Origin: Kordia zhangzhouensis
Lineage (GTDB): Bacteria; Bacteroidota; Bacteroidia; Flavobacteriales; Flavobacteriaceae
DNA length: 64,000 nt
Assembly: GCF_001005305.1 (NCBI RefSeq)
Contig: NZ_LBMH01000004.1
Span: forward strand, 434,001 to 498,000
Direction: 5' to 3'
A program made the position numbers and the translations under genes. Below are positions 6,681 through 44,292 of the stretch, in pieces. Numbering within the stretch: the stretch's first letter is position 1; the number at the start of each line of letters is the position of its first letter. Under the pieces are notes generated by a model. The model was given only the letters and a program-made list of their open reading frames with translations. It searched no databases and was not told the origin of the DNA.

Positions 6681-8312
6681 ATGTTTAACATTAAACCAAA
6701 AAACATTATTTATATCGTTCTTTACGCGTTGCCAAACACTGTATTGAGCTTTAGCATTGTATATATTATAAATAATGTACTTTCAGGAAATCCAGCATTT
6801 CTCAAAGGATACATGGGTATTGTCTTTATGGCCTTGGTTGTGTACACGTACTTATTGAATATCGTGTTTCAAAAATGGCTTAATAAATTCTCTTTTGACA
6901 TCCTTTACAGTAATGAGAAAAAAATCTTTAATCAAATTTTAAAAGCTCCAATGCTAAGTTTGGAAAAATTCGGACCCAAACGTTTCTTAACTGCTGTAGA
7001 AGACTTACGAACTTTTTCAACATTGCCATATACCGTAACACATACCGTAAATTCTGTATTAATGTTAGTACTGTGTTTGGTATACATGTTTACACTTTCA
7101 GCAGCTTCTGCATTAATCGTAATCGGTTTAATCTTAGTCGTAGCTGGTTGTTATTTCTTAGTCGTAAACTCTATGTCAAAACAAGTAGCAACTTTACGCG
7201 AGTATAATGAGCATTACTATCAGTATGTAGGAGATGTAATGGATGGGTTTAAAGAGTTGAAAATTAGTTTTTTCAGACGAGAAAACTTAATGAACAAATT
7301 TTTAGCTCCTAACCGTGACAAAGCAAAAGACTTGGATTTTAAAATTAACTATATCTTTTTGTCAATCAATTTAATAAGTCAATACGGATTATATTTTGTA
7401 ATAGCAGTAATTTTATTCTTATTGCCGGCATTTAACTTATTACCTAGAGCTGATGTGATTTCGTATGTAGTAATTGTTATGTTCATTTCAGGACCAATTA
7501 ACAACCTCATCAACTTACAACAAATGTACACGCGCTTTATGGTGGCAAATATTCGTATTAAAAACTTTTTGAGAGATTTTAAATTGTTAGATAATTATGA
7601 CCAACTTGAAGTGAACGAAGAAAATACTTTTGAATCGTTAAGCTTTCACAATGTACATTTTAACTACAATGAAGATCCAAACGCAGACTCATTTGCCTTA
7701 GGACCAATTAATTTGGAAATCAAAAAAGGAGAAGTCGTATTTATTGTTGGAGGAAATGGTTCAGGAAAAAGTACTTTTATCAACACGCTTACTGGAATTT
7801 ACAGTCCATCGAAAGGAGAAATTTGTTTAAATGGTGACTCTGACAATATAAAAGGAAAATTACAAAATCTCATATCAGCAGTTTTTACAGACAATCACAT
7901 CTTTACTCACAATTACGATAACTATAAACTTGAAGAGAATGCTATTTATAACGAATGGCTTAAAATCATGCAACTAGACAAAGTTATTGTTGATGATAAA
8001 GAAGAATCTGTACGAAGAAACTTCTCTAAAGGGCAAAGCAAACGTGTATCGCTCATCTTTGCAATGTTAGAAGACAAACCTTTATTGATTTTAGATGAAT
8101 GGGCAGCAGATCAAGATCCTCACTTTAGAAAATTCTTCTACGAAGAACTTATTCCAAAGTTTAGAGAAGCTGGTAAAACAGTAGTTGCCGTAACTCATGA
8201 TGATGCATATTTCCACAGTGCAGACCGAATCATTAAGTTTGATTATGGTAAAGTAGTGAAGGATGTAAAAGTGATGAGTAAACAAGAACTTACAGAAACT
8301 CTTTGGATATAA
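6681..8312 (+). CDS. Cyclic-peptide-type ABC exporter (SyrD/PvdE-like), membrane plus ATPase
   Basis: This 543-residue half-transporter has about six membrane segments in residues 1-285, then a nucleotide-binding domain. Walker A is GGNGSGKST (about residues 356-364), the signature loop is NFSKGQSKR, Walker B is PLLILDEWAAD, and the H-loop is AVTHDD. Spacing and wording match the PvdE/SyrD family, whose members export non-ribosomal peptides or their precursors across the inner membrane as homodimers. There is no N-terminal C39 peptidase domain, so this transporter cannot cleave a double-glycine leader as a PCAT-type exporter would. It sits between the unknown 125-residue gene and the GIN-domain gene, immediately upstream of the small peptide array. 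It is the probable exporter for the NRPS product. Confidence 0.93.
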   Translation: MFNIKPKNIIYIVLYALPNTVLSFSIVYIINNVLSGNPAFLKGYMGIVFMALVVYTYLLNIVFQKWLNKFSFDILYSNEKKIFNQILKAPMLSLEKFGPKRFLTAVEDLRTFSTLPYTVTHTVNSVLMLVLCLVYMFTLSAASALIVIGLILVVAGCYFLVVNSMSKQVATLREYNEHYYQYVGDVMDGFKELKISFFRRENLMNKFLAPNRDKAKDLDFKINYIFLSINLISQYGLYFVIAVILFLLPAFNLLPRADVISYVVIVMFISGPINNLINLQQMYTRFMVANIRIKNFLRDFKLLDNYDQLEVNEENTFESLSFHNVHFNYNEDPNADSFALGPINLEIKKGEVVFIVGGNGSGKSTFINTLTGIYSPSKGEICLNGDSDNIKGKLQNLISAVFTDNHIFTHNYDNYKLEENAIYNEWLKIMQLDKVIVDDKEESVRRNFSKGQSKRVSLIFAMLEDKPLLILDEWAADQDPHFRKFFYEELIPKFREAGKTVVAVTHDDAYFHSADRIIKFDYGKVVKDVKVMSKQELTETLWI

Positions 8313-8332
8313 ACCATTAACACTATTAAATC

Positions 8333-9100
8333 ATGAAAAAAAACAAAACACACACACTCAATAAAGTCTCAAAAACAGCACCTTCTATACTATTTTTTAG
8401 TTTTAAAAATGATTCGCCTACAGCTTCTCAAACAATAAAAGTGGATCATTTTGACAAAGTAGTGGTAAGCCCATACATTCAGGCTGTTTTTAAACAAGGC
8501 GAACAAGAATCGGTAAGCGTGGAAGCGCTAACTATTTCTTCAGAAAAAATGCATGTGGAAGTAGCTGACAATGTATTAAAAGTGTACTTACACAAAGCAG
8601 AAGCAGAAGTAAGTTTGGATGATGATCAATCTGTAAACTGGGAAGATCAATCAATTTATAATGGTACCATTGCAAAAGTGGTGATTACCTATAAAAGTTT
8701 AAAGAAACTAGCTTTAGTTGGAGAAGAAGAATTTACATTCCTAGATACTATAGCTGCACAAGATGTAAACTTAAAATTGATTGGAAAAACAAAAATTCAC
8801 ATCAAAGAAGCTATAATTGAAAATTTCAACATTACTTCATTTGGTAAAAATTATTTAGAAGTCAGTTCAGGAGTTGTTCCTTATCAAAGTATCACTGCTT
8901 TTGGCGAAGATCAATTGAACTTAGAAGGTGTGCAAAGCGAAATCACCGAAGTAAAATCATTAGGAAATAGTAAAATGAAACTCAATGTTTCCAAAAAACT
9001 TAGGGTTACAAGCATGGGCGATACGCATATCCTTTATAAAGGAGATGCTAAAGTGTCTAAAGGAATCGTGATGGGCAATTCACGTATTGAGCGCATGTAA
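8333..9100 (+). CDS. GIN-domain (DUF2807-like) beta-helical protein
   Basis: This 255-residue protein lies 20 bp after the exporter gene. From residue 40 on it reads as repeating short beta strands (VDHFDKVVVSPYIQAVFKQG, then LALVGEEEF, ITSFGKN, ITAFGEDQ, VKSLGNS, VTSMGDT). That periodic pattern is typical of head-GIN / DUF2807 proteins, which fold as right-handed beta helices and are usually exported. Here the N-terminus (MKKNKTHTLNKVSKTAPSIL) lacks a convincing signal peptide, so its location is unclear. Its tight spacing with the exporter places it in the biosynthetic operon, but I cannot assign a molecular function. It is followed by 148 bp without a gene and then the first small peptide gene. 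Confidence 0.8.
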   Translation: MKKNKTHTLNKVSKTAPSILFFSFKNDSPTASQTIKVDHFDKVVVSPYIQAVFKQGEQESVSVEALTISSEKMHVEVADNVLKVYLHKAEAEVSLDDDQSVNWEDQSIYNGTIAKVVITYKSLKKLALVGEEEFTFLDTIAAQDVNLKLIGKTKIHIKEAIIENFNITSFGKNYLEVSSGVVPYQSITAFGEDQLNLEGVQSEITEVKSLGNSKMKLNVSKKLRVTSMGDTHILYKGDAKVSKGIVMGNSRIERM

Positions 9101-9248
9101 TTCTTCTATCGCAACTTTATTACCAAAACTAGTTACCACTTAACATTTCGGAATATCACAACTATCTGACATAAAAGCATTTATTGTTTTTCATGCTCAG
9201 ATAGGTGGGATTCCTATGTCTATATGTAACATCTAAAAATAGTAACAT

Positions 9249-9410
9249 ATGAAAAAAACAACTCGTAAAATGGTTTTCACAAAGCAAGTCATTTCAGCAT
9301 TAAATATGCAACAAATTACTGGCGGATTAAGAGCCACACAAAGTGATCAGGCCCTAACAGGGTGTCATACCAATTGTCAAACAGACAATTGCTCAACCGC
9401 AAAGAAATAA
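9249..9410 (+). CDS. RiPP-type precursor peptide 1 of the array (53 residues)
   Basis: The gene starts at an ATG after the A-rich AGTAACAT. The peptide has a basic leader (MKKTTRKMVFTKQVISALNM), then QQITGG at residues 21-26, then a core rich in Cys, Thr and Ser (TGCHTNCQTDNCSTAKK). The leader pattern F-x-K-x-x-I-S-x-L-x(n)-GG is shared by its neighbours and by the peptides at 30, 44 and 56 kb. It resembles the leaders of Bacteroidota class I lanthipeptide-type precursors. The core HTNC is shared with the orphan at 30054. No lanthionine synthetase is encoded nearby, so the peptide may be unmodified or processed by enzymes elsewhere. Confidence 0.75.
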   Translation: MKKTTRKMVFTKQVISALNMQQITGGLRATQSDQALTGCHTNCQTDNCSTAKK

Positions 9411-9436
9411 GTGTAAAATCATTAAAAACAGGCAAA

Positions 9437-9589
9437 ATGAAATCAATAAAAAAACTTGCTTTAAAAAAAGCAACCGTTTCTCAATTAAAAAAGATGCAAG
9501 GTGGAGGCGAAGGATCACAATCAATCACGATGTGTGAAACCATGTATTGTCCAAGCAGGTATGGTTTCTGTCCACCACCACATGAATAA
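9437..9589 (+). CDS. RiPP-type precursor peptide 2 of the array (50 residues)
   Basis: Leader MKSIKKLALKKATVSQLKKM is followed by QGGGEG (double-glycine region, residues 21-26) and a core with three Cys (SITMCETMYCPSRYGFCPPP). The chosen ATG gives a leader aligned with the other members; the same frame opens further upstream but without leader-like sequence. It lies 26 bp after peptide 1. The K-K-A-T-x-S-x-L-K block is nearly the same as in the peptide at 10074 (KKATISNLK). Core residues Thr/Ser preceding Cys would suit lanthionine rings, but no cyclase gene is visible here. Confidence 0.75.
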   Translation: MKSIKKLALKKATVSQLKKMQGGGEGSQSITMCETMYCPSRYGFCPPPHE

Positions 9590-9620
9590 GTACAGTATAA
9601 CCATTTAAAAAACACAAAAC

Positions 9621-9797
9621 ATGAAAAAAAGCAATAACAGAAACCAAAACAACAAGTCTTTACACTTACAAAAAAATGTAGTATCAAGATTAAATCAAAA
9701 AACCATTACTGGAGGAATTGTAGCTTCAAATATATCTGCAAATCTAACGCAATGTTTATCTGATGCTACATATTGCCATGCATGTAAAGAACAGTAA
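9621..9797 (+). CDS. RiPP-type precursor peptide 3 of the array (58 residues)
   Basis: The ATG follows AAAACACAAAAC. The leader contains LHLQKNVVSRLNQKTITGG (GG at residues 31-32), matching the L-x-L-x-K-x-x-x-S-x-L-x(n)-GG pattern of the array. The core is rich in Ser/Thr and ends CLSDATYCHACKEQ with three Cys. The N-terminus has an unusual Asn-rich insertion (SNNRNQNNK) not seen in its neighbours. It lies 31 bp downstream of peptide 2. As for the others, maturation enzymes are not apparent in this locus. Confidence 0.72.
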   Translation: MKKSNNRNQNNKSLHLQKNVVSRLNQKTITGGIVASNISANLTQCLSDATYCHACKEQ

Positions 9798-9888
9798 TAA
9801 ATATTTCATAAAAGTACTCTTTTCTCAAAAAGACTAAACTGCTTTTTAGAAACACACACAATACAAACCCATTAAAACTTTAACAGTT

Positions 9889-10041
9889 ATGAAAACAAAA
9901 TCATTCAACAAATTCAATTTCAAAAAAGTAACCATTACCAATTTAAAAAATAGTAAAGGTGGATTACAAGAACCGCTACGAGCTGGGCAATCAGCAGATA
10001 ATACCACATGCATGAGCATGTCTGCATGTGATACGTATTAA
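9889..10041 (+). CDS. RiPP-type precursor peptide 4 of the array (50 residues)
   Basis: The leader MKTKSFNKFNFKKVTITNLK is followed by NSKGG (GG at residues 24-25) and the core LQEPLRAGQSADNTTCMSMSACDTY with two Cys. The block FKKVTITNLK aligns with FKKATISNLK of the next gene, so these are recent paralogues in the leader with divergent cores. It lies 91 bp after peptide 3, at an ATG preceded by TTTAACAGTT. Conserved leaders with fast-changing cores are the usual pattern of RiPP precursor families; here that is seen directly by comparing the array members. Confidence 0.73.
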   Translation: MKTKSFNKFNFKKVTITNLKNSKGGLQEPLRAGQSADNTTCMSMSACDTY

Positions 10042-10073
10042 TAAAAAAACAATAACATATAAAAAAAGAAACC

Positions 10074-10256
10074 ATGAAAAAAAGGACTTTAAAACAATTG
10101 GTATTCAAAAAGGCGACCATCTCAAATTTAAAAACTGTTAATGGAGGGATGTTGAAAAGTAGTGTTTCAAACTGCTACTGCCATTCTGATCTTTGTGAAA
10201 CTAAAATAACTTGCCCTGATGATAAAATAACAAATCAGCAAGATCAAAAAATATAA
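10074..10256 (+). CDS. RiPP-type precursor peptide 5 of the array (60 residues)
   Basis: The leader MKKRTLKQLVFKKATISNLK is followed by TVNGGM (GG at residues 24-25) and a core with five Cys (SVSNCYCHSDLCETKITC) before a hydrophilic tail. It is the clearest match in the array to the leader consensus. It lies 32 bp after peptide 4 and is followed by a strong hairpin with a T-run at 10282-10312. That terminator probably ends the transcript of peptides 1-5, or attenuates it before the remaining array and the second NRPS. Confidence 0.8.
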   Translation: MKKRTLKQLVFKKATISNLKTVNGGMLKSSVSNCYCHSDLCETKITCPDDKITNQQDQKI

Positions 10257-10281
10257 AAAAACTTAATAGTTACTCATTTTG

Positions 10282-10312
10282 CGTTCTCAGAATTCATTTC
10301 TGAGAACGTTTT
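10282..10312 (+). terminator. Hairpin terminator or attenuator after peptide 5
   Basis: Arms CGTTCTCAGA (10282-10291) and TCTGAGAACG (10299-10308) are perfectly complementary over 10 bp with a 7-base loop and are followed by TTTT. It lies 25 bp after the stop of peptide 5. It separates the five well-formed array members from the three less regular ones, so it may split the locus into two transcripts or reduce read-through into the second NRPS. Confidence 0.7.
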
Positions 10313-10358
10313 CCAATCAATTATTTCTCTTTTTAACTAACCATTAAAATTAACCATT

Positions 10359-10493
10359 ATGAAAAGCAAGTCATGTAAAGTGTTTGCATTTAAAAGTCAA
10401 ACTATTGCAAACTTTCAACCGCAACTTATAGTAAAGGCACGAAGCTGGGAATTTTCATGCTTTACAGGAACCAAACATAATTTTGAAAACTAA
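10359..10493 (+). CDS. Degenerate precursor-like peptide 6 of the array (44 residues)
   Basis: The gene starts ATGAAAAGCAAG after TTAACCATT, like its neighbours. The leader-like start MKSKSCKVFAFKSQTIANFQ follows the array pattern (F-K-x-x-T-I-x-N-F), but no GG is present where one is expected (PQLIVKARSWEF). The core has only one Cys (SWEFSCFTGTKH). It looks like a decayed or diverged array member; whether it is still made cannot be told from sequence. Confidence 0.55.
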   Translation: MKSKSCKVFAFKSQTIANFQPQLIVKARSWEFSCFTGTKHNFEN

Positions 10494-10512
10494 GTAAAAA
10501 TAGAAATCATAA

Positions 10513-10671
10513 AAAAAGTCATTCCATAAATTAATTATTAGAAAAGTAAATATTTCTGGTTTGACTATAAAAATAGGAGGAGTGAGTCATACACATTTTC
10601 CAGAAGCTGGTTTACAAGAATCAACTATTTGTTATAGCCTTGAATGTGAGATGAAAGATAAAGAATCCTAA
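10513..10671 (+). pseudogene. Precursor peptide 7 of the array, start codon lost
   Basis: From 10513 one frame reads KKSFHKLIIRKVNISGLT, then IKIGGVS, then a core ending ESTICYSLECEMKDKES, with a stop at 10669-10671. This is a full leader-GG-core layout (GG about 27 residues from the start of the frame). Where the ATG should be, the DNA reads ATCAT followed by seven A and a G, giving TCA TAA AAA AAG in this frame. A small deletion around an original ATG-plus-A-run would explain it. No in-frame ATG exists before the GG; a TTG or ATT start inside the leader would remove most of it. I therefore call it a pseudogene, with a sequencing error in the A-run as the alternative. Confidence 0.6.
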
Positions 10672-10744
10672 ACCCATTCCTTTTTTAAACCTTTTTTTAG
10701 AAGCGTTTTCTACTACAATACAACATATACGTTACTAAATACTT

Positions 10745-10897
10745 ATGAAAAATAATATAGCAACAAATATACATCTCAGTAAAACTACTGTTGCTGATCT
10801 TACTCAATTACAAGGGAATACCATTAGAAGTTGGAGTTCAATAGCGTTAAAAGCTATGAAACAACAAATACTTCAGCAAGCAGAAAAGATGCAGTAA
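10745..10897 (+). CDS. Precursor-like peptide 8 of the array (50 residues), next to NRPS 2
   Basis: The ATG follows TACTAAATACTT. The leader-like part MKNNIATNIHLSKTTVADLT aligns with the array consensus (L-S-K-T-T-V-x-D-L), but the GG position reads QGNT and the remainder (IRSWSSIALKAMKQQILQQA) has no Cys. It is 50 residues long, like peptides 2 and 4. It ends 62 bp before the ATG of the second NRPS gene. It may be a decayed precursor, or a leader ORF whose translation affects the NRPS message; the sequence alone does not decide. Confidence 0.45.
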   Translation: MKNNIATNIHLSKTTVADLTQLQGNTIRSWSSIALKAMKQQILQQAEKMQ

Positions 10898-10959
10898 TTT
10901 CTGAGGAATGTTCAACTGAATTAGACTCAATTCTTAGAGTCTTTAAACACAAAAGCATT

Positions 10960-13900
10960 ATGAAACTAACACTTCCACAACAGGATATCTATTTTGAACA
11001 ATTAGTATATCCTAACGAACCTATATATAATATTGGTGCAGATATTCGTATTGACGGACAGGTAAATTACGATATTCTCAATCAAGCATACATTGCACTA
11101 ATTAACCAACATGATGCCTACAGAAGTATTCTAAAAGGAGATCTATTATCCACAGCAATAGAAATTCTTCCTTCATATAATACGGCTTTAGAATATGTAG
11201 ATTTTTCTTCGGATCCACAACCAGAGAAAGCTGCTGCAAATTTCATGCAAGCCGATTTTAAAGAAGCATTTGATATTACTTCTGAAAAAGTTTTGTTCAA
11301 ATTTGTTTTAATCAAAGTAACCGAAACTTCGTATCATTTATATTCCAAATATCATCATATCATTACAGATGGTTGGGGAACCTCGGTAATGTTTCAACGT
11401 TTGGTAAAAAATTATAACGAACTGATAGAATTTGGAAAAATTACTTCTGACTACCCATTTACCTATGAAGAATTTGTAAAAGATGACGAAGCATACCAAA
11501 CATCAGAAGCGTTTGAAAACGATAAAGCATATTGGACAGATAAATTTAAAAGCTTGCCCAATACGCTTTTCCAAAGAAAAAATCCGAAAGCTCGAACAAA
11601 CAAGAGCAATCGAAAAACCTTAGTGCTTACACGTTCTTTTTACAATACTTTAAACGAAGTATCCAAAACATGTAAAGCCACCACATTACATACTATTTTA
11701 GCAGCATTGAATGTATACTTTGCACGAAAACATCAAAACAATGATATCGTAATTGGGTTACCTGTACTAAATAGATCATCGGCAAAATTCAAGAAAACGG
11801 TAGGATTGTTCATGGGAATTTCAGCATTACGTATGCAAGTAAACTTTGAAGATTCTTTTGAAACTCTAGTACAACAAATTCGTCAGCAATTACGCCAAGA
11901 TTATCGATATCAACGTTTTCCTTTAGGTAAACTGGTACAAGAATTAGAACTATTTCATGAAAAAGAAGGTTTGTTCAACATTACCCTTTCGTATGAAAAG
12001 CAAAATTATGCAGACCATTTTGCAAATACGCATACGGAAGTAATCCCAATGACGCATGGAGCAGAACGTGTTGCCTTGGCTCTATATATCAGAGAATTTG
12101 ACGAAACTGAAGATGTCCGAATAGATTTTGATTACAACACAAACTATTTTTCTGAAGAAGAAATTACGCAAGTAGTACATCACATAGAAACACTACTTAC
12201 AAGCATAGTTGCCAATCCAACAAAAAAGTTAACAGCATACACGTATCTTTCAAAAGAAGAAAAAGAAACTTTAGCAGCGTTTAATGATACCAAAATTGCT
12301 TTACCAAAAAGTAAAACATTTTTAGATGTATTTGCAGACAATTCGGAAGATTATACCAATAAAATAGCTGTTAAAGATGGCGAGAAGACTTATACATACG
12401 ATGCCTTAGAAATTACATCCAATGCAATTGCACAAGCACTGCAAAAACAGCAAATAGCGATAGACAATACTCCAATCGCAATCATGATGGATCGTTCCGC
12501 AGATATGGTAGCTGTATTACTAGGAGTTATGAAAGCAGGAAGTGCTTACATTCCATTAGATCCTTCTTTTCCAAAAGAACGATTAGAATATATTATAGAG
12601 CATAGCGGAGTGCATGGAATTATTGGAGATGTAAAATATAAAGGAGTATTAAATTCAAGAGCAACGTTTATAGATGCAAAAGAAGTATTGACAGCAAAAA
12701 ATACTGGCGAAGTACTTCAAGAAGTTACACCAGAAGATAGCGCATATATTATTTACACATCAGGATCAACAGGAAATCCTAAAGGTGTTGAAATAGGGCA
12801 CAAATCATTATTCAATTTCTTGTCGAGTATGATTGACCGTCCAGAAATCAAACAAACAGATACATTATTTTCGGTAACAACGATTTCATTTGACATTTCT
12901 ATTCTGGAATTGTTTGCACCATTAATGGCAGGAGCAACCTTATATGTGGCAAATAACGAAACACTAAGCAATCCAACAGAAATTGCTAAGGCAATACAGG
13001 AAGTGCAGCCTACAATACTACAAGCAACTCCAAGCTTTTATCAAATGTTGTTCAATGATGGTTGGACAGGAGATAAAAGGTTAAAAATTTTATGTGGAGG
13101 CGATGTGTTAGGAACCGCTTTAGCCGAAAAGTTATTACACACGTGCGATAGTTTGTGGAATATGTATGGGCCAACAGAAACAACTATTTGGTCTAGTGTT
13201 AAACACATTCAAAATCCAGCAGAAGCTACCAATATAGGAACACCAATATACAATACAGAATTCTTTATTCTTGATGAAGCAATGCAAATGCAACCTATAG
13301 GAGCGGCAGGAGCCATTTATATAGGTGGCGATGGATTGGCAAAAGGATATTATAAAAATGAAGAGTTAACTGCAGAACGTTTTATAAAAAATCCATTCAA
13401 TCCAAACACACGATTATACAACACAGGAGATCTTGGAAAGTGGACAAAAGAAGGTGAAATAGAGTTCCTAGGACGAAATGATTTTCAAGTAAAAATTCGT
13501 GGTTTCCGCATTGAATTGGGTGATATAGAAACTAAACTGAATGCTATCAGTGGAATAAAAGATGCAGTAGTTGTTAAAAAGAGCATCCAGGAAGAAGCAA
13601 TGTTAGTTGGTTATGTAATGATGGACGCTTCCGCAGAATTTGACGCAAAAACAATTACAAATGCATTGCGCAATCAGCTTCCTGCATACATGATTCCTAA
13701 TGCAATTGTTCCTGTAGACGATTTTCCACTGACACCTAATAAAAAAGTGAATCGTAAAGCTTTGGCTGAAAAATCATTGGAAGTAGCAAGCTCTTTACAA
13801 AGTGATAACAAAGCTATGACAGCAACTGAAGAGAAAATTTATCAATTTTTTAAACAAATACTAAAAATAAATGATGACTTCAGTATTGATAGTAGCTTCT

Positions 13901-15396
13901 TCATGTTAGGTGGACATTCGCTTAATGCAGTTCGATTGATTGGACTCATAGAAAATGAATTTGGTTGCCGTTTAACGCTAAGAGATATGTTTGATCGTCC
14001 AGATGTTCGTTCAATAGCACATCAACTAGATAGTAAAGAATGTGATGAACGACAGATGATTGTTCCGGTAGAAACACAAGAATTTTATCCGGTTACATTT
14101 CCACAATACGCTATCTGGTTAGCATCACTGCAAGCAGAAAAGTCTATAGCTTACAACATGTTTTCAGCATATGAAGTACAAGGGAAAATTGACAAACATA
14201 TCATGGAAACAGCTTTTAAAGGGTTGGTAAAGAAGTTTGAAATATTACGAACCAACTTTGTGGAACATGACGGACATGCATATCAAAAAGTAAAAGCGTT
14301 TGAAAATGTTCAGTTTAAAGTTGATGAAGTACAAACAACATTAACAAACTATGAAGAAACTCTTAAAAAATATACAAACAAAGAATTTGATTTAGCAAAC
14401 GATTTACTAATCAAAATAGCCATTTTCAATATTGAAGGTCAGGCAGATAGATTGGTTTTTTCAACACATCATGTCATTATGGACGGCTGGTCTTTAGAAT
14501 TAATGATTCAAGAAACAACAAATCGTTATCGTACCATTTTGGCAGGGGAAACATACCAAGAAGAAACGTTAAGTTTCCAGTTTAAAGACTTTGTTGTGTG
14601 GCAAAACCAAAAAGAGCAAGACAATTTAGCAATCAATAAAAAATTCTGGAGCGAATATATAAGTGATTATCAATGGAAACAATTAGTTCCATACGATACA
14701 GAATATGCAGAAGCGCACTACAAAGGGGAATTTTACCACTTTCGGTGGGATCGAGAGTTCATGGATGCATTAAATACACTAGCTGTTCAAAACAAAGTGA
14801 CTTTACATACCTTGCTTATGGGAACGTACAATACGTTGCTCTATAAAATGTATGGACAAGATGATTTGTGTGTGGGAACCATCAATTCAGGAAGGACATT
14901 CTCAGAGTTAAACAAACATTTGGGGATGTTTGTAAAAACACTTCCGCTACGCACACACATTCAACCAGAAACATCGTATGCAAGTTTCTTACAGCAAATG
15001 CATGAAAACTTAATGAATGTAGATTCACATCAAGACGTACCTGAAGAAGTATTAAATACACTGCGCTTTGAGGCTATTATGGTGTTGCAAAATCAAACAT
15101 TCAACTACAAAGAAATCAACATAACAGAAGATTTAAAATTAGTATCTAAACCTGCTATTGCAGAATTTAACAGGTTGCCAATGCTTATTGATTTCTCTGT
15201 TGATACTGAAGCAATTCAAGGATGTGTACTCTATGACACCAGTAAATATCATAGAGAAACCATCGAGATTTTAATGCTAAAATTTGAAAAACTATTACAA
15301 CAAATTCTAACAAATGTGCACGCTTCAATTCATGAATACGACATCAGTCTCGAATTCGAACAACAAGAAGTAGTAGACATTGACTTTAATTTTTAA
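10960..15396 (+). CDS. Non-ribosomal peptide synthetase, one module plus terminal condensation domain (C-A-T-C)
   Basis: The first in-frame ATG is at 10960 (MKLTLPQQDIYF), exactly where a C domain normally begins; the frame is open back to a TTG at 10831, which I reject. The protein has 1478 residues. Domains: C (HHIITDG at about 132-138), A (SGSTGNPKG about 600, NMYGPTETT, YNTGDLGKW, GFRIELGDIE), carrier (LGGHSLNA, Ser 987), and a second C (HHVIMDG about 1169). Hand alignment to GrsA gives a code of about DILQLGMIWK, one residue from the known glycine code DILQLGLIWK, so glycine is the predicted substrate. The terminal C domain has an intact motif and there is no thioesterase domain, so it either passes the chain to another protein or releases it onto a free nucleophile. 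It shares the locus with the partial NRPS at base 2. Confidence 0.93.
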   Translation: MKLTLPQQDIYFEQLVYPNEPIYNIGADIRIDGQVNYDILNQAYIALINQHDAYRSILKGDLLSTAIEILPSYNTALEYVDFSSDPQPEKAAANFMQADFKEAFDITSEKVLFKFVLIKVTETSYHLYSKYHHIITDGWGTSVMFQRLVKNYNELIEFGKITSDYPFTYEEFVKDDEAYQTSEAFENDKAYWTDKFKSLPNTLFQRKNPKARTNKSNRKTLVLTRSFYNTLNEVSKTCKATTLHTILAALNVYFARKHQNNDIVIGLPVLNRSSAKFKKTVGLFMGISALRMQVNFEDSFETLVQQIRQQLRQDYRYQRFPLGKLVQELELFHEKEGLFNITLSYEKQNYADHFANTHTEVIPMTHGAERVALALYIREFDETEDVRIDFDYNTNYFSEEEITQVVHHIETLLTSIVANPTKKLTAYTYLSKEEKETLAAFNDTKIALPKSKTFLDVFADNSEDYTNKIAVKDGEKTYTYDALEITSNAIAQALQKQQIAIDNTPIAIMMDRSADMVAVLLGVMKAGSAYIPLDPSFPKERLEYIIEHSGVHGIIGDVKYKGVLNSRATFIDAKEVLTAKNTGEVLQEVTPEDSAYIIYTSGSTGNPKGVEIGHKSLFNFLSSMIDRPEIKQTDTLFSVTTISFDISILELFAPLMAGATLYVANNETLSNPTEIAKAIQEVQPTILQATPSFYQMLFNDGWTGDKRLKILCGGDVLGTALAEKLLHTCDSLWNMYGPTETTIWSSVKHIQNPAEATNIGTPIYNTEFFILDEAMQMQPIGAAGAIYIGGDGLAKGYYKNEELTAERFIKNPFNPNTRLYNTGDLGKWTKEGEIEFLGRNDFQVKIRGFRIELGDIETKLNAISGIKDAVVVKKSIQEEAMLVGYVMMDASAEFDAKTITNALRNQLPAYMIPNAIVPVDDFPLTPNKKVNRKALAEKSLEVASSLQSDNKAMTATEEKIYQFFKQILKINDDFSIDSSFFMLGGHSLNAVRLIGLIENEFGCRLTLRDMFDRPDVRSIAHQLDSKECDERQMIVPVETQEFYPVTFPQYAIWLASLQAEKSIAYNMFSAYEVQGKIDKHIMETAFKGLVKKFEILRTNFVEHDGHAYQKVKAFENVQFKVDEVQTTLTNYEETLKKYTNKEFDLANDLLIKIAIFNIEGQADRLVFSTHHVIMDGWSLELMIQETTNRYRTILAGETYQEETLSFQFKDFVVWQNQKEQDNLAINKKFWSEYISDYQWKQLVPYDTEYAEAHYKGEFYHFRWDREFMDALNTLAVQNKVTLHTLLMGTYNTLLYKMYGQDDLCVGTINSGRTFSELNKHLGMFVKTLPLRTHIQPETSYASFLQQMHENLMNVDSHQDVPEEVLNTLRFEAIMVLQNQTFNYKEINITEDLKLVSKPAIAEFNRLPMLIDFSVDTEAIQGCVLYDTSKYHRETIEILMLKFEKLLQQILTNVHASIHEYDISLEFEQQEVVDIDFNF

Positions 15397-15426: not shown

Positions 15427-17379
15427 ATGAATACTAAAAAAACAATCATCAGTATACTTTGTGCTTTTGTAATGACTACATTCTTTACGCTTACGCATGC
15501 ACAAGACGTAACATTTGAAACCACAGACTCTTTCTATGAAGGTGTGAAGTCATTAGAAAAGGAAGATATAACTTGGGCAGTATTAACCATTCCTGAAAAT
15601 TGGGATGCTCCTAAAAAACGAAAAATTCAACTTGCGGTATCAATCTTGAAAAATAAATCAGGAAAAAAAGAAGCAGACGCTGTTGTATTTATTCAAGGAG
15701 GACCAGGCGATAAAAGTGTAGAAAATTTGTGGTCATGGTTAGATCATCCTTTGCGAGAAACAAATGATATCGTGCTTTTTGATTTACGTGGAACAGGATT
15801 ATCTAAACCTAGATTATGTAAAAACCTGGGAGAAGAATTCTTTCAAATTCTCTCAAAAGATCAATCACCTGCAGAAGATGAACAACAAAAAATAGCAGCA
15901 GTATTAGAATGCAAAGAAGATCTTATCAATCGAGGAATTGATATTGAAGCCTATAATAGCACCTCTATTGCCAAGGATATTCATGCGTTAAAACAATCAT
16001 TACCTTACCAAAAGTGGAATGTATATGGCGTTTCTTATGGTACATACATGTCACAAGTATATGCAAGTATGTTTCCTGAAGATATCAATTCATTGATTCT
16101 AGACTCTTCAATATCAGATATCAAAACTTATTATGCAGAAAATACAAGCAATTACATGCAAAGCTTATCCAAAGTATTCAGCGCATGCGAAAATGATGAA
16201 GCTTGTAACAAAGCATACCCAGATATTGAAAAAACGTATTATGAAGTTATCGCTGATTTAGAAAAACAACCTTTAACAGTACCGGTTTCTAAAGAAATAT
16301 TGGCAAGCGGACAATTTACTTTTAATGCAGAAGATTTTAAGATTGCCATTCAACAAGCGTTATACAACAAAAAATTTGTAGAAGTATTGCCATTATTAAT
16401 CTATGAGTTTAAAAACAGAAATGAAACAGTATTAGGAAACTTAATACCATCATTCTCAAGTATGTTGTCTATGGATTATGGAATGTACTACTGTGTAAGT
16501 TGTACGGAAACATTACCCAACAATAGTTTAGACGCTTACAAAAAAGATGTGGCAAAGTATGGCAAACTAGCAAATGGATTGGCTTTTTACAAATCAGATT
16601 TCTCAGTATGTGACAAATGGAATACGGGAAAAGTTGACTCATTATATAGTTCACATGACCTTTCAAACTTAAAAGAAGCAGCCTATCCAGTATTGGTTTT
16701 TGCAGGGGCATATGATCCAATTACACCAGCATCCAATGGAAAAGCAACGGTAAGTAAGTTTGCCAATGGATATGAAGTAAAAGCTAATGCATATGGACAC
16801 GTACCGAGTTTATCAAACATAGGAGATCAAGTTGTTGCAAACTTTATCAAAGATCCTTCAAAAGCACCAAAAGCTGATATGTTTGAAAGTGATGCAAGTT
16901 TAACTATGGTACAAGGGATCACTTCAAACAAAGGTGTTGCCAACATGGGAACTATGTTTAGCCAATGGGATCCAATGTTATGGCTTCCGCTAGCATTGGC
17001 AGTTGGACTCATGATCTCTTTCATCATAGCACATAGCATACGATTGATGAAGCAACGTCAAATGAAACTATCAGACAAAGTGATTCGTATTTTGAATGTC
17101 ATTACTTCTACTTTAGGAATCATAACATTTGGCGGATTATTATATGCCATTATGGACATGTCGGGAAGCAACTCATTTGCTCTTGCTTTTGGACTACCTG
17201 AACGATATGACTTTTTATTTACCATTATGTTGGTTTTTGTAGTCATACTAGCCATTTCAACATTGTACTTTTTTATCAGTATGAAAAAACTAAAAGATAG
17301 AAGCATCCTATTTTCTGTTCTTTTCTCAAATATGCTGATAGCAACTTATTTCTTTTACTGGGGAATGATTTCTCTTTAA
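15427..17379 (+). CDS. Secreted/membrane-anchored alpha/beta hydrolase (peptidase S33 / TAP-like)
   Basis: This 650-residue protein has a signal peptide (ending THAQ, about residue 26), a hydrolase domain, and four predicted C-terminal membrane segments from about residue 515. The hydrolase shows FIQGGPGDKS (oxyanion region), FDLRGTGLSKP, the nucleophile elbow GVSYGTYM, an acid in FAGAYDPITP and the His in YGHVPSL. That is the pattern of tripeptidyl/prolyl aminopeptidase-like S33 enzymes. The combination with a C-terminal membrane bundle would hold the catalytic domain on the periplasmic face. It lies 30 bp after the second NRPS and 35 bp before an ATP-grasp-like gene, so it may trim or hydrolyse the peptide product after export. 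The substrate is unknown. Confidence 0.85.
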   Translation: MNTKKTIISILCAFVMTTFFTLTHAQDVTFETTDSFYEGVKSLEKEDITWAVLTIPENWDAPKKRKIQLAVSILKNKSGKKEADAVVFIQGGPGDKSVENLWSWLDHPLRETNDIVLFDLRGTGLSKPRLCKNLGEEFFQILSKDQSPAEDEQQKIAAVLECKEDLINRGIDIEAYNSTSIAKDIHALKQSLPYQKWNVYGVSYGTYMSQVYASMFPEDINSLILDSSISDIKTYYAENTSNYMQSLSKVFSACENDEACNKAYPDIEKTYYEVIADLEKQPLTVPVSKEILASGQFTFNAEDFKIAIQQALYNKKFVEVLPLLIYEFKNRNETVLGNLIPSFSSMLSMDYGMYYCVSCTETLPNNSLDAYKKDVAKYGKLANGLAFYKSDFSVCDKWNTGKVDSLYSSHDLSNLKEAAYPVLVFAGAYDPITPASNGKATVSKFANGYEVKANAYGHVPSLSNIGDQVVANFIKDPSKAPKADMFESDASLTMVQGITSNKGVANMGTMFSQWDPMLWLPLALAVGLMISFIIAHSIRLMKQRQMKLSDKVIRILNVITSTLGIITFGGLLYAIMDMSGSNSFALAFGLPERYDFLFTIMLVFVVILAISTLYFFISMKKLKDRSILFSVLFSNMLIATYFFYWGMISL

Positions 17380-17414: not shown

Positions 17415-18791
17415 ATGAAAAATACCATTTTATTTGATCATTATGATAGTTTTGTAAACGCTGAAAAAAAAGAACTTCCATACGCTTTAAATACGAATAG
17501 TGAATTAGTATCTGAATTTTTTAGAGATTTCAAATATCCAATATCCTCTTGGCCAATTATACTACCAGAAAAACTTACCAATGAATTGCAACAAGTGAGT
17601 GTTGAAATTCCAAGATTACTGAACAAAATTCCATCACTATATTTTGAGAATGATGCCAAACGCATTGCCGATTTCTATTTTGATGGAAATGTTCAGATGG
17701 CAGAATTTTATATGCTTTGTGTTCAAAAACAAACACCAATCAGTTGCCGATTGGATTTGAGCTACACAACCGAAGGTTTTAAAGTACTTGAAGTCAATGC
17801 AGGCTCTTCTATAGGAGGAATGGAATTCCAACATTTTGAACCTCTGATTGAAAATGTTCACTCTGAATTATCGGGAACACCGCAAGTAAATTTCAAAGCA
17901 AAACAAACACAAGATATTTACATGAAGTTCCTACTACAACAAATTGGAAATGTGGGAAATCAAGTAAATGTATTTTTAGCGGGAAGAGCTGACGAAAATG
18001 AAGCAAGCAAACAAGCTCAAAAGAAGTTTTTTAATGAATTACTAGCAAAAGAATTAAACAATAAAGGGAAAAAAGGATCAGTATATATAGATACTATTGC
18101 TTCATTAACATACAAAGACAATGCATTGTACTATAAAGACACTGTAATACATTCTGTGCTAATTCTTGACCATTCACTTAGTAGTATGTCTCCCGATCTT
18201 TTTAGAGCATTATTAATGGACCAAGTATATTTTCCTGATCATTTAGGAACCATGTTCTTGGGAGACAAAAGAAATCTTGGCATACTTAGAAAATTGGCAC
18301 AAGCAAAAGCATTTAGCGAAGAAGAAAACAAACTGATTCTGAATCACATTCCTTGGACAGAGATTATAACAGATACAGAAGTAACCTATCAAGGAAAAAG
18401 AGAACCATTAGTACCATTGCTTAAATATCGAAAAGATGACTTTGTCATAAAAGTAGCTAATGGAATGCAAGGCGACGATGTTTTTATAGGAAGATATCTA
18501 TCGGATGAAGCATGGGATAAAGCAATCACAAAAGCATTAGCACATCAAAAATTTGTTGCGCAAGAATTTAGTGATTCTATAAACTTACTAGCACCAGATA
18601 ATACCAATCAGTGGTCACCACACAAATTAATATGGGGATCGTTCGGATTTGGAAAAACATATGGAGGCGTTTGGGTACGCATGTCTGCCTTAAAAAACAC
18701 TTCAGGAGTTATTAACTCAGCCACTGGTGCAGTAGAAGCGATCGTATATGAGTCACATCCAAAAGCGAAAGCACATGTACTCATGATCTAA
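17415..18791 (+). CDS. ATP-grasp-like ligase A (possibly circularly permuted), 458 residues
   Basis: I do not recognise a named family, but the fold class can be suggested. The N-terminal half has FKVLEVNAGSSIGGM, an E-x-N pair like the metal-binding end of ATP-grasp enzymes. The C-terminal half has DDFVIKVANGMQGDDVFIG, like the Lys plus Gly-rich nucleotide loop, followed by KFVAQEF. This inverted order is that of circularly permuted ATP-grasp proteins. It is a clear paralogue of the protein at 19828 (shared IADFYF, DQVYFPDHL, GDKRNLG, NHIPW/QHIPW, HKLIWG and GVINSATGAVEAIVYE). The pair flanks a CmcI-like gene. ATP-grasp ligases join a carboxylate to an amine or thiol, so peptide tailoring is a reasonable inference. 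No signal peptide is seen. Confidence 0.8.
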   Translation: MKNTILFDHYDSFVNAEKKELPYALNTNSELVSEFFRDFKYPISSWPIILPEKLTNELQQVSVEIPRLLNKIPSLYFENDAKRIADFYFDGNVQMAEFYMLCVQKQTPISCRLDLSYTTEGFKVLEVNAGSSIGGMEFQHFEPLIENVHSELSGTPQVNFKAKQTQDIYMKFLLQQIGNVGNQVNVFLAGRADENEASKQAQKKFFNELLAKELNNKGKKGSVYIDTIASLTYKDNALYYKDTVIHSVLILDHSLSSMSPDLFRALLMDQVYFPDHLGTMFLGDKRNLGILRKLAQAKAFSEEENKLILNHIPWTEIITDTEVTYQGKREPLVPLLKYRKDDFVIKVANGMQGDDVFIGRYLSDEAWDKAITKALAHQKFVAQEFSDSINLLAPDNTNQWSPHKLIWGSFGFGKTYGGVWVRMSALKNTSGVINSATGAVEAIVYESHPKAKAHVLMI

Positions 18792-18823: not shown

Positions 18824-19774
18824 ATGGACACATTAGATATGAACATACAGCATGAAAAGGTAATGGAAAAGCTAGATGGAACAATGCTACGTAAAATTTA
18901 TGAGCAGTTTTCAAGTGCATGGGCACAAAAGCTTCAAACACAGGGAAATGTACCTACATTTTACGATCATGTGATAAAAGATGGATTGACGCTTTTTTCA
19001 ATGAATATTGAATCCATTCCTTGGGAGAAAGATTTAGAAGATATCATACTGTCCGTAGAACATTTTGCATCTCGACAAGGTATTGAAATGTTTATCTCTC
19101 AAATGGTAAATTGGTACTATGGAAGATACGTTTTGTACGACCTTCGAGTTCAACCAAACGAAATGATTCAGAGTAGTTTAGATATTGATTTTCTCAAAAA
19201 ATCAGCTAGAGATACAACCTTCTCAATGAGTCAGGGCTATTTTGACTGTTTGCAATGGAAAGACACAATTTTATTTAAGACCGTTTATGATCTAGCCATC
19301 TATCAGATGCTCATGTGGGAGCTGAAACCGAAAACAATCATCGAAATTGGTTCGGGAACTGGAGGAAGTGCAGTTTGGATGGCAGATCTAATGGCTTCTT
19401 ACGGAATAGAAAGCAAAATTATTTCATTTGACATTATAGCACCCAAAATTAGATATGACAATGTAACCTTTTTGCAAGGCGATTGTAATCATATAGATCA
19501 AATAATGAAAGTAGCGATTTTAGAAAAAATGCCAAAACCTTGGTTGCTCATAGAAGATGCACATGTGAACGTTTATGGCGTCTTGCAACATTTTCATCCC
19601 TTATTACAAGAAGGAGATTATCTAATTGTAGAAGATAGTGAAAACAAGCAAAAAGAGATCAATCGCTTCTTAAAAGATACAAATAAAAGCTATCTAGTTG
19701 ATGCGCAATATTGTGACTTCTTTGGTCATAATATGACTTGTTCTTACGATTCAATATTTCGTAAGATGAAGTAA
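18824..19774 (+). CDS. CmcI-like SAM-dependent enzyme (cephalosporin hydroxylase / methyltransferase family)
   Basis: This 316-residue protein has a helical N-terminal part of about 150 residues and a Rossmann methyltransferase-like domain. The SAM-site motif is IIEIGSGTGGSAVWMADLM (about residue 172). Later come SFDI, FLQGDCNHI, LLIEDAHVN and GDYLIVEDSEN. Those blocks match the CmcI family (PF04989-type), which includes enzymes tied to cephamycin 7-hydroxylation/methylation and to rhamnosyl O-methylation. It sits 32 bp after ATP-grasp-like A and 53 bp before ATP-grasp-like B. The arrangement suggests a three-enzyme tailoring cassette acting on the non-ribosomal product or on the small peptides. 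The reaction itself is not predictable from sequence. Confidence 0.8.
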   Translation: MDTLDMNIQHEKVMEKLDGTMLRKIYEQFSSAWAQKLQTQGNVPTFYDHVIKDGLTLFSMNIESIPWEKDLEDIILSVEHFASRQGIEMFISQMVNWYYGRYVLYDLRVQPNEMIQSSLDIDFLKKSARDTTFSMSQGYFDCLQWKDTILFKTVYDLAIYQMLMWELKPKTIIEIGSGTGGSAVWMADLMASYGIESKIISFDIIAPKIRYDNVTFLQGDCNHIDQIMKVAILEKMPKPWLLIEDAHVNVYGVLQHFHPLLQEGDYLIVEDSENKQKEINRFLKDTNKSYLVDAQYCDFFGHNMTCSYDSIFRKMK

Positions 19775-19827: not shown

Positions 19828-21222
19828 ATGGAACCAATACAATTTGAACCAGCAATAAAAAATTCGATTCTATCAAATAAAGAAGCACAATTTGAAAGCA
19901 ATCGTATCAAAGAAATTCCGACGCTAATTGAGCCAACTCAATATAAACTACCAGCAATTATGCAAAATTATGCATATCCGGTAAGTACTTGGCCTGTAGT
20001 AATATCAGAAAAAATGCAGGAAACACTAGCGCAATTATGTGTTAGAATTCCCCAATTAATCAAAGCAATCCCTGAATTATATTTTAAAAATGATGAAAAA
20101 CGAATTGCCGATTTCTACTTTAAAGGAAACGAAATGGTCACGCAATTTGCTATGATTTGTCATCAAAAAAATGTAGAAACTGGTTGCCGACTCGATTTAA
20201 CATATTCAAAAGATGATTTTAAAATTTTAGAGGTCAATGTAGGCTCATCAATTGGTGGTTGGCAAGTACAAAGCTTTGAAAAGATTATTCGAAGTTTTCA
20301 TCCACAGTTAACAGATCCTGTAACAGCTACTACGTACGAGTCACGCAACTCGCAAGCCATTTATATGAAATTCTTGGTTGACAAAATTTTAGCTCAAGTT
20401 CAACCAACAGATGAAATGATAAATGTTTTTGTAGGTGTAGGACATATTGAAAGTGAAAAAATCAAACAAGATGTAATTGACTTTTTTGGCGGTTTATTGA
20501 AAAAGGAATTTGCGGCTAGAGGGCTCAAAGGACAAGCACATACGGGAAAATTTGCATCATTAACACTTAAAAATAGCAAACTATACCATAAAGATGAAGT
20601 AATGCATGGAGTCGTAGCGTTTAAAGTTGAAGAAGATGAGCAAGTTCCTGCCGATGTTTTTCGAGCATTTATTATGGATCAAGTTTACTTTCCTGATCAT
20701 TTGGCAACTGGAATATACGGAGATAAAAGAAATTTAGGACTATTGCGAGAATTGGCAGAACAACAGGCTTTTTCAGCAGAAGATAATGAATTGATTTTAC
20801 AACACATTCCTTGGTCATCTGAGATAACACCCAAAAATGTAAGCTATGCAGGAGAAACCTCATCAATTGTAAACATACTGCGAAAGTATAAAGACAAGTT
20901 GGTAATAAAAGCAGCTCAAGGCTATCAAGGAAAAGATGTTTTTATTGGAAAATTTTCTTCTGAAGAAGAATGGGAAGAAGCCATCAAAATTGCATTAACT
21001 GCGGCTGATTTTATTGCACAAGAATACAACGAATCAATCAATTTTTTAGCGCCTAATGGACAACAAGAATGGACAGACCATAAATTGATTTGGGGCGCAT
21101 TTGGATTTGGACCTCATTATGGAGGTGTTTGGGTACGACTCTCTGAAGTTGCCAATGACGTTGGTGTCATCAATTCGGCAACGGGAGCGGTAGAAGCTAT
21201 TGTATACGAAATTAAAAAATAG
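19828..21222 (+). CDS. ATP-grasp-like ligase B, paralogue of the 17415 protein (464 residues)
   Basis: It aligns with the 17415 protein along its whole length. Shared blocks include ISEKMQ/LPEKLT regions, RIADFYF, CRLDLTY, FKILEVNVGSSIGGWQ, DQVYFPDHL, GDKRNLG, HIPW, KLVIKAAQGYQGKDVFIG, FIAQEYNESINFLAP and HKLIWGAFGFG, ending at the GVINSATGAVEAIVYE block. The presumed nucleotide-binding Lys and E-x-N residues are retained in both copies, so both look active. The N-terminal 25 residues differ from copy A. It is 7 bp upstream of the phosphopantetheinyl transferase gene and clearly co-transcribed with it. Two active paralogues suggest two successive ligations or two substrates; this is inference. 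Confidence 0.8.
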   Translation: MEPIQFEPAIKNSILSNKEAQFESNRIKEIPTLIEPTQYKLPAIMQNYAYPVSTWPVVISEKMQETLAQLCVRIPQLIKAIPELYFKNDEKRIADFYFKGNEMVTQFAMICHQKNVETGCRLDLTYSKDDFKILEVNVGSSIGGWQVQSFEKIIRSFHPQLTDPVTATTYESRNSQAIYMKFLVDKILAQVQPTDEMINVFVGVGHIESEKIKQDVIDFFGGLLKKEFAARGLKGQAHTGKFASLTLKNSKLYHKDEVMHGVVAFKVEEDEQVPADVFRAFIMDQVYFPDHLATGIYGDKRNLGLLRELAEQQAFSAEDNELILQHIPWSSEITPKNVSYAGETSSIVNILRKYKDKLVIKAAQGYQGKDVFIGKFSSEEEWEEAIKIALTAADFIAQEYNESINFLAPNGQQEWTDHKLIWGAFGFGPHYGGVWVRLSEVANDVGVINSATGAVEAIVYEIKK

Positions 21223-21229
21223 AAAAGTC

Positions 21230-21922
21230 ATGATACATATATTTTACGCATACACATCAGAAAAAGATCATAATGCTTTGTTGTGTAAATATTTACCGGT
21301 ATTACCACCAAGTTATCGTGAAAAAATATTACGTTTTCGCAATTGGAAAGACGCACAATTATCCTTATTAGGACGCTTATTATTGGATCATGGTATAAAA
21401 ACTAAGTTTCCACAATATGCTGACTCTATGGAAATAGCATACACATCACATAGAAAGCCTTACTTTAAGAATAATAACTTGAAATTCAATATTTCGCATT
21501 CAAAAAATATGGCTATTTGTGTAATATCTGATGGCGCAGATATGGGAATTGATGTAGAAGGAAATGCACCTGTCAATATTGATGATTTTAAAGAGTATAT
21601 GACTCCTTTTGAATGGCAGCAAGTAATATCTGCTCCTAAAAAAGAAAATGCTTTTTATAAGTATTGGACAAAAAAAGAAGCAGTCATCAAAGCTGATGGA
21701 AGAGGTTTATCAATTCCGTTAAAAAGTTTCGAAGTCAAAGAAGAAATTGCGAATATTGAAAATAGTGCATATGTATTGAAAGAGGTATTCTTAGACTCTG
21801 AATATACTTGCTATATCGCTTTAAAAAAGCAAAAAAACATTGCTACACAACCTCAATTTGACGAAAAAGTAGTGCTTAATCAAGTACATATTTCGTCAGA
21901 GATGAAAGTGGCAATGGTGTAA
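21230..21922 (+). CDS. 4'-phosphopantetheinyl transferase (Sfp type)
   Basis: This 230-residue protein carries the Sfp-family signatures: MGIDVEG (metal-binding Asp/Glu) in the middle and FYKYWTKKEAVIKADGRGL about 45 residues later. An N-terminal IFYAY start and a LLGRLLLDHG segment also fit. It transfers the phosphopantetheine arm from CoA to the carrier-domain Ser of the NRPSs, here the Ser near base 1455 and Ser987 of the second NRPS. The ATG at 21230 is chosen because it follows the upstream stop by 7 bp and opens directly into the family N-terminus. It is the last gene of the locus before a terminator. Confidence 0.93.
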   Translation: MIHIFYAYTSEKDHNALLCKYLPVLPPSYREKILRFRNWKDAQLSLLGRLLLDHGIKTKFPQYADSMEIAYTSHRKPYFKNNNLKFNISHSKNMAICVISDGADMGIDVEGNAPVNIDDFKEYMTPFEWQQVISAPKKENAFYKYWTKKEAVIKADGRGLSIPLKSFEVKEEIANIENSAYVLKEVFLDSEYTCYIALKKQKNIATQPQFDEKVVLNQVHISSEMKVAMV

Positions 21923-30053: not shown

Positions 30054-30197
30054 ATGAAAAAACAAAATTTACAATCGCTGAAACTTCGCAAACAATTGAT
30101 TTCTAAAGTACAAGAAATTTCTATAAAAGGAGGCGGACATACACAATTACATACCAATTGTGTAACGCTGTGTATTTCTTGTCACGATCCAAGATAA
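30054..30197 (+). CDS. Orphan RiPP-type precursor peptide (47 residues)
   Basis: The leader MKKQNLQSLKLRKQLISKVQ is followed by EISIKGGG (GG at residues 26-27) and the core HTQLHTNCVTLCISCHDPR with three Cys, each preceded by Thr or Ser at short distance. The pattern L-x-L-x-K-x-x-I-S-x-(L/V) plus GG is that of the array at 9-11 kb, and the core shares HTNC with array peptide 1. It stands alone, followed by a strong terminator, with no modification or transport genes beside it. Confidence 0.75.
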   Translation: MKKQNLQSLKLRKQLISKVQEISIKGGGHTQLHTNCVTLCISCHDPR

Positions 30198-44064: not shown

Positions 44065-44292
44065 TTAGCAAATAGGAAGTGTATTCCCGTCAACTTCATT
44101 AGTTTTACAACGCTCTCTTGAATTATAAGTACAATCCAATCCGTTGGTCGGGCATCCATAAATAGTCAATGGACCTGTTCCACAAATTGTATAATACGTT
44201 CTAATTGCCAATCCTGCTAGGATTTCATCTTTATTCAAATTAGAAATTGTTGATTTTTTTACGCTTAAGCTTTTTAAACTCTTTTTTTTCAT
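44065..44292 (-). CDS. RiPP-type precursor peptide (75 residues)
   Basis: Leader MKKKSLKSLSVKKSTISNLN shows the array pattern L-x-V-K-K-x-T-I-S-x-L. The cleavage region reads DEILAGLA, so AG replaces GG. The core is long and has five Cys (ICGTGPLTIYGCPTNG, DCTYNSRERC, final C). It is the most typical class I lanthipeptide-like member in the window. It lies 30 bp downstream of a second precursor gene on the same strand and shares its terminator with the M28 gene. No lanB/lanC gene is nearby. Confidence 0.82.
   Translation of the reverse strand: MKKKSLKSLSVKKSTISNLNKDEILAGLAIRTYYTICGTGPLTIYGCPTNGLDCTYNSRERCKTNEVDGNTLPIC

Follow-up and report, generated by a model that had tools for sequence, protein, structure and literature searches.

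Candidate orphan class I lanthipeptide precursors inside a non-ribosomal peptide synthetase locus of Kordia zhangzhouensis

The stretch of Kordia zhangzhouensis DNA considered here (64,000 nucleotides, positions 434,001 to 498,000 of contig NZ_LBMH01000004.1; hereafter "the window") contains, at 9249-10897, an array of small genes on the + strand, lodged between the genes of an exporter and a GIN/DUF2807 protein on one side and that of a non-ribosomal peptide synthetase (NRPS) of C-A-T-C organisation on the other. We think that these genes probably (about two chances in three) encode orphan class I lanthipeptide (LanA) precursors which are modified in trans, and which sit in a recurrent slot of the NRPS locus without the NRPS being needed for them, a reading drawn from sequence comparison.

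The peptide array and its leaders

The leaders were compared with a profile (A1) built from 30 leaders, all taken from outside NRPS arrays; 24 of these seeds come from the window genome, and one (G000:C12:22389) is a precursor belonging to the LanB/LanC locus described below. Among the 336 open reading frames (ORFs) of the window, the first five genes of the array (p1 to p5) match A1 at E-values of 8.2e-6 to 1.6e-10, against a best value of 0.17 in the control, the reversed window (295 ORFs). Local E-values were computed on small ORF sets, and those given below for the genus and the family on whole genomes. The A1 matches, compared with the reversed-window control, together with a rate of non-synonymous substitution (dN) lower than the synonymous one (dS) when the array is set against its counterpart in the related genome G008, led us to reject the idea that these are chance ORFs.

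The initial annotation had counted eight related precursor genes, and this stands for the five that are complete, each with a Lys-rich leader, a Gly-Gly (GG) leader end and a Cys-rich core: p1 (9249-9410, E 4e-8), whose core is RATQSDQALTGCHTNCQTDNCSTAKK, p2 (9437-9589, E 1.7e-6), p3 (9621-9797, E 8e-8), p4 (9889-10041, E 8.2e-6) and p5 (10074-10256, E 1.6e-10), all on the + strand like the rest of the array. The G008 counterpart of p3 is 54% identical to it, and that of p4 58%, with an AG leader end where the window has GG. The other three members are unequal. The p6 gene (10359-10493) has a leader-like start, no GG and a core with SWxxSCFT, and its A1 match (E 2.9) is not significant; its G008 counterpart, 43% identical, keeps A-x-SWxxSCFT. 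The p7 frame (about 10513-10671, E 0.13) is leader-like, with GG and Cys, and has no ATG, GTG or TTG ahead of the leader, so that it is either decayed or dependent on a non-standard start. Finally, p8 (10745-10897, E 0.0025) has a leader-like start and an SWSSIAL core with neither GG nor Cys, and its counterpart in G008 (57% identical) also lies directly ahead of the NRPS. The SW motif is thus common to p6 and p8, both of which lack GG and have counterparts in G008; these two peptides may escape C39 cleavage or serve another use.

The leader motif LxLxKx5L is present in strict form in p2 and p3 and in relaxed form (other hydrophobic residues allowed) in p1, p4, p5 and p8, and p6 does not fit it. 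Among 51 A1-matching ORFs from loci of the window genome, 24 have the strict and 48 the relaxed motif, versus 1 and 40 of 291 control ORFs. Two or more core Cys occur in 49 of the 51, versus a fraction of 0.33 of the controls (counted as two Cys after residue 27), a core statistic that is partly circular given the origin of 24 of the 30 seeds. Of the published models, NF038153 (cut-off 22 bits) gives 16.6 bits with p1, 13.0 with p2, 14.7 with p4 and 14.0 with p5, and does not match p3, p6 or p8; TIGR04149, a leader model for peptides modified by radical SAM enzymes (cut-off 25), gives 10.2 bits with p2 and no match with the other six array ORFs scanned.

Four more leader-matching genes for Cys-rich peptides lie in the window away from the NRPS locus (30054-30197, 44065-44292, 44323-44484 and 55966-56145); their leaders end in GG, except for the one starting at 44065, which ends in AG.

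Two elements of possible regulatory interest flank array members. An inverted repeat 5' of p1 (9150-9222, + strand; GGAAT..ATTCC, CTATCTG..CAGATAG) has an equivalent in G008 (L063, 8720-8841), where the lower stem is kept, a 25-nucleotide block is identical and the upper stem differs; an exact 17-mer from it was found in 4 of 136 loci, all of them this site in the window genome or in G008. It is possibly a regulatory RNA or an attenuator. Just 3' of p5, at 10281-10309 on the + strand, a hairpin of 12 pairs (11 standard and one G-T) followed by TTT may be a terminator; it was spotted by eye and then folded (-17.9 kcal/mol for 50 nucleotides), the terminator scan not having reported it. Other signals were searched for as well: Rfam gave three matches up to E 1 in 8000-11200, each far under its gathering score; a Bacteroidetes-type promoter pattern, sought on the + strand of positions 1-26000, occurred nowhere close to the array, two overlapping matches being at 13961 and 13965; and a sigma-70 scan gave 15 sites versus 12.7 (standard deviation 3.3) in shuffled sequence.

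Lanthipeptide machinery and spread of the leader family

It had initially been remarked that no lan genes lie near the array, and a search of the genome for LanB and LanC homologues had been suggested. The remark is correct for the locus, where none was recognised, but not for the genome, where the search turned up a single LanB and three LanC-like matches, none of them on the contig of the window. One locus encodes LanC, the N-terminal and C-terminal parts of LanB as separate genes, an AraC-like regulator, two precursor-like peptides, an HlyD protein and a C39 exporter; it carries PF04738, PF14028 and a separate LanC, and not the class II LanM of the prochlorosin systems. The best solved relatives of the LanB N-part by sequence include NisB, and the C39 exporter matches, over its length, a solved bacteriocin peptidase-transporter. 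The array does not share a cluster with adjoining LanB and LanC genes, as class I precursors of the same-cluster kind do. Elsewhere (L127, 6065-10480, on G000 contig 1), a LanC-like protein is encoded near an LxmK-like protein (NF038156, 61.7 bits, under the cut-off of 315) and a repetitive protein rich in Thr, Gly and Cys; this is possibly a second lanthipeptide system.

The machinery appears to be part of the core genome of Kordia. Each of the 11 Kordia genomes has one LanB match, with a C39 match at most 12 kb away on the same contig. Between the window genome and G008 or G007, identity is 88-96% for LanC, the exporter and the two parts of LanB, and 82-83% for HlyD; genus-wide, LanB is 86-98% identical and an rpoB fragment 96-99%, and the relatives' NRPS only 46-76% identical to that of the window. 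At E<=0.01, the A1 matches number at least 117 for the window genome and at least 125 to at least 150 for each of the other ten, these counts being lower bounds, as no more than 150 candidates were scored per genome. In gene content, therefore, Kordia combines many dispersed precursors (117 to 150 or more leader matches) with a single synthetase.

The association extends beyond the genus. In a survey of 149 genera of Flavobacteriaceae, one genome each, LanB was found in 15, and the seven genera with A1 matches at E<=0.001 all belong to these 15 (hypergeometric p 2e-8, uncorrected for kinship). NF038153 matches five genera, again all with LanB (p 5e-6, likewise uncorrected); one of these genomes, G049, has none for A1 at the threshold. 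The proposal of a RiPP-type precursor family (RiPPs being ribosomally synthesised and post-translationally modified peptides) is thus supported by the A1 matches in the array, the genus and the family and by the Cys statistics of the cores.

The NRPS locus and its junction in relatives

The placement initially described, between a SyrD-type exporter with a GIN protein and a C-A-T-C NRPS, is borne out by family matches. All on the + strand, the locus encodes a cyclic peptide export ABC transporter (6681-8312; TIGR01194, 319 bits, cut-off 286.2), the GIN/DUF2807 protein (8333-9100; PF10988, 83.6 bits), and, after the array, the NRPS (10960-15396; two stretches of PF00668, PF00501 and PF00550), a TAP-like alpha/beta hydrolase that is a member of the conserved NRPS locus (15427-17379), a first ATP-grasp-like protein (17415-18791), a CmcI-like methyltransferase (18824-19774; PF04989, 68.1 bits), a second ATP-grasp-like protein (19828-21222) and a 4'-phosphopantetheinyl transferase (21200-21922; PF01648). 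The CmcI-like assignment made at the outset is confirmed, but that of the two ATP-grasp-like proteins has only sub-cut-off Pfam matches behind it; an AlphaFold model of such a protein is poor (mean pLDDT 54.5), and no solved relative was found by sequence in the PDB at E<=1. No RiPP enzyme was recognised in the NRPS locus, and the best family matches of the locus exporter are without a C39 domain, unlike the exporter of the LanB locus.

Comparison across genomes, set beforehand as the test that would refute a joint ribosomal and non-ribosomal system, showed that the NRPS locus does occur without peptides in relatives. The locus is present in 10 of the 11 Kordia genomes. Thirteen loci were compared, that of the window and 12 from relatives, 12 of the 13 having this NRPS (in L072 no NRPS of this kind separates the exporter from the hydrolase that follows it). 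Peptides occupy the exporter/NRPS junction in four: the window, G008, contig 15 of G009, and G007, where they adjoin an aspartokinase-like gene. Nine junctions are free of peptides, seven having gaps of 26-116 bp and two another protein gene; they include 8 of the 12 loci that have this NRPS. One of the proteins found at a junction, in G003 (L066, 9328-10185), is a lipoprotein with an STFK motif, by eye like a class D beta-lactamase or a penicillin-binding protein. At the same junction in G008, 15 ORFs match A1 (E<=0.01), and p1 homologues with an ATQSDQ..TGC.TNC core are found there in G008 and G007. G003, G005, G007 and G009 also have p1-type cores (ATQSN...TGC.TNC) outside the NRPS locus; in these four genomes the p1-type peptide genes (L130-L133) are similarly placed beside VanX-like and AlkB-like genes, named by eye. 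A lone leader-matching gene for a Cys-rich peptide was also seen in G005, Kordia periserrulae (L035, 13579-13806), about 1.5 kb downstream of the phosphopantetheinyl transferase gene of the NRPS locus.

The trees of the NRPS and of rpoB disagree. In the NRPS tree the window groups with G008 (100/100), whereas in the rpoB tree the window genome groups with G007 and G005 (100/100) and G008 with G009 (84/92), a pairing of G008 with G009 that is also found in the LanB tree (98/97). The window genome and G008 thus share locus and array contrary to the rpoB tree. Among the 13 loci the GIN/DUF2807 protein is found by tblastn in the window and G008 only, and among the NRPS loci compared the CmcI-like methyltransferase is found in the same two (L036 in G008). 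Because the NRPS tree conflicts with those of rpoB and LanB, it seems that the stretch from the GIN gene through the array to the NRPS passed between Kordia lineages. Mapped on the NRPS tree, the presence of peptides takes three changes, possibly a single gain and two losses.

We also asked how far leaders and cores are constrained between the window and G008. In all seven pairs computed (p1-p6 and p8) dN is lower than dS. Pooled over the pairs p1, p3, p4, p6 and p8 (p2 and p5 being left out and p7 not being among the computed pairs, with dS saturated), the cores have a dN of 0.34 and the leaders one of 0.39, which means that in these five pairs taken together the two parts are under roughly equal constraint. 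Pair by pair, the core is more conserved in p1 and p8, the leader in p3 and p4, and neither in p6. The initial impression that leaders are conserved while cores diverge is therefore correct, by eye, among array members, but does not clearly hold between species.

Interpretation and comparison with known systems

We propose that the LxLxKx5L-type leader would be bound by the only LanB of the genome, split into glutamylation and elimination proteins, that this LanB would dehydrate Ser and Thr of the core, that LanC would form thioether rings on the core Cys, and that the C39 peptidase-exporter of the distant LanB locus would cleave after GG (present in p1-p5, absent from p6 and p8) and then secrete the product. 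One core-genome enzyme set may thus serve more than a hundred dispersed precursors, the exporter/NRPS junction being a recurrent landing site for some of them. The presence of an array inside an NRPS locus would then be explained by a genome-wide precursor set and a LanB encoded elsewhere, and the NRPS is therefore likely not needed.

Several observations weigh against this proposal and should be kept in mind. All seven array ORFs scanned (p1-p6 and p8) fall short of the NF038153 cut-off; p6-p8 fit a GG-cleaved lanthipeptide poorly; the core statistics are partly circular, as said above; and the comparison with G008 suffers from saturated dS and from uncertain pairings of p2 and p5 (38-39% identity). 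At E<=0.001, A1 finds nothing in eight of the 15 genera with LanB, and two LanC-like genes lie beyond the machinery locus in the window genome. The recurrence at the junction rests on few cases, and clustering of the peptide label on the NRPS tree is no better than shuffled (210 of 500 shuffles as low). In the rest of the 12 relatives' loci the A1 matches at E<=0.01 are limited to three ORFs in antisense orientation (in L064, L067 and L072), which are without GG and were excluded as peptides; the L035 gene falls beyond the stretch scanned with A1. Conversely, the recurrence and the joint grouping of the window with G008 leave room for some link with the NRPS. To this one may add that Kordia has been assigned both lanthipeptides and peptides modified by radical SAM enzymes (PMC11118758).

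That last report bears on an alternative that we consider unlikely, in which the peptides are modified otherwise, by radical SAM enzymes or, as graspetides, by ATP-grasp enzymes, or are secreted via the C39 exporter as unmodified disulfide peptides. It would fit the weak TIGR04149 match of p2, the ATP-grasp-like proteins close by and the Cys pairs, which would suit disulfides; but the TIGR04149 match is far below its cut-off, and the leader accompanies LanB in seven of seven genera (co-occurrence having been compared with LanB, not with C39 or radical SAM proteins, and radical SAM genes not having been searched for across the genome). The NRPS locus keeps its first ATP-grasp-like protein even where peptides are lacking, and ATP-grasp genes of this locus are found in 10 of the 11 Kordia genomes whether junction peptides are present or absent, so that a dedicated peptide modifier of this type is disfavoured.

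We give little credence to the joint ribosomal and non-ribosomal system suggested initially, in which array peptides and NRPS product would be made or act together, as a joined product or as co-secreted partners. The peptides do recur at this junction in 4 of 13 loci, on the same strand between exporter and NRPS, the p1-type core with ATQSDQ stands there in three genomes, and NRPS and array of the window and G008 group together contrary to rpoB. However, the nine junctions without peptides lead us to reject such a pathway as a requirement, and the p1-type cores that four other genomes have next to VanX-like and AlkB-like genes, together with a locus exporter whose best matches are without C39 and the lack of a recognised local RiPP enzyme, also speak against it. 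Hybrids of this kind, such as the lipolanthines, have RiPP enzymes and the assembly line in one conserved cluster, which is not what we find. Chance adjacency, the plain alternative offered at the time, agrees with the unclustered label on the tree, but less well with a junction that recurs in four genomes and with a locus and array shared by the window and G008. A narrower version, in which a single promiscuous LanB/LanC/C39 set serves the more than one hundred precursors and the NRPS-linked subset, with its conserved ATQSDQ..TGC.TNC core, stays at the NRPS junction and moves along with the NRPS because the lanthipeptide and non-ribosomal products are used jointly, also seems to us rather improbable. 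That the array is a decaying remnant, heading for loss and giving no product, is very improbable: p7 has no usual start codon and p6 and p8 have no GG, but p1-p5 are intact, G008 has its 15 matching ORFs at the same place, and dN is below dS in all seven pairs, p6 and p8 included.

Returning to orphan class I precursors modified in trans, part of the picture is already in print. Kordia serves as an example of RiPP-rich Flavobacteriaceae in the TrRiPP study, where as many as 176 precursors are reported for a single genome of Bacteroidota, along with one predicted radical SAM cluster co-localised with class I lanthipeptide enzymes (PMC11118758); we found in it neither a single LanB for dispersed precursors nor arrays at NRPS junctions. 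In the open-licence literature of PubMed Central (PMC) we found no description of one LanB serving dispersed class I precursors, an arrangement that we thus did not find in print. A PKS-NRPS (polyketide synthase-NRPS) cluster of 225 kb, at 802-1027 kb, has been described in Kordia antarctica (PMC7477175); if G003 is K. antarctica, as we infer, two of our loci, at 816-836 and 912-932 kb on a contig of 5.5 Mb, lie inside this interval, and both are without junction peptides, unlike the array of the window.

A number of the class I precursors of Bacteroidetes described by Walker et al. (2020; PMC7268733), who name the pinensins as the example that has been isolated, have an LxLxKx5L leader, many of them ending in GG, and often a C39 protease in the cluster. 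The array resembles them in leader motif, GG end, C39 protease and LanB/LanC, and differs in its place, since that survey, as described, looked for precursors no further than seven genes from LanC, whereas the Kordia matches are dispersed and the array is found within an NRPS locus on a different contig; a search so confined would miss it. If our proposal is true, mining bound to clusters gives too low a count of precursors and may point to hybrids that do not exist, and arrays of orphan precursors within further gene clusters would be explained.

In genetic organisation the closest parallel is with the prochlorosins and synechococsins, in which one promiscuous enzyme, standing alone, serves scattered and tandem precursors; for one such system 79 putative precursors are cited (PMC10783134). 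Kordia likewise has scattered and tandem precursors and a single synthetase, known here from genes alone; but prochlorosins use a class II LanM of the ProcM group, and Kordia a class I LanB in two parts together with LanC, each genome having from 117 to 150 or more leader matches. If the single LanB handles all of these, Kordia would be a class I counterpart of the prochlorosin producers with more precursors than the 79 cited, and would offer a natural library for studying the tolerance of one dehydratase for unrelated cores and the roles of such peptides in a marine bacterium.

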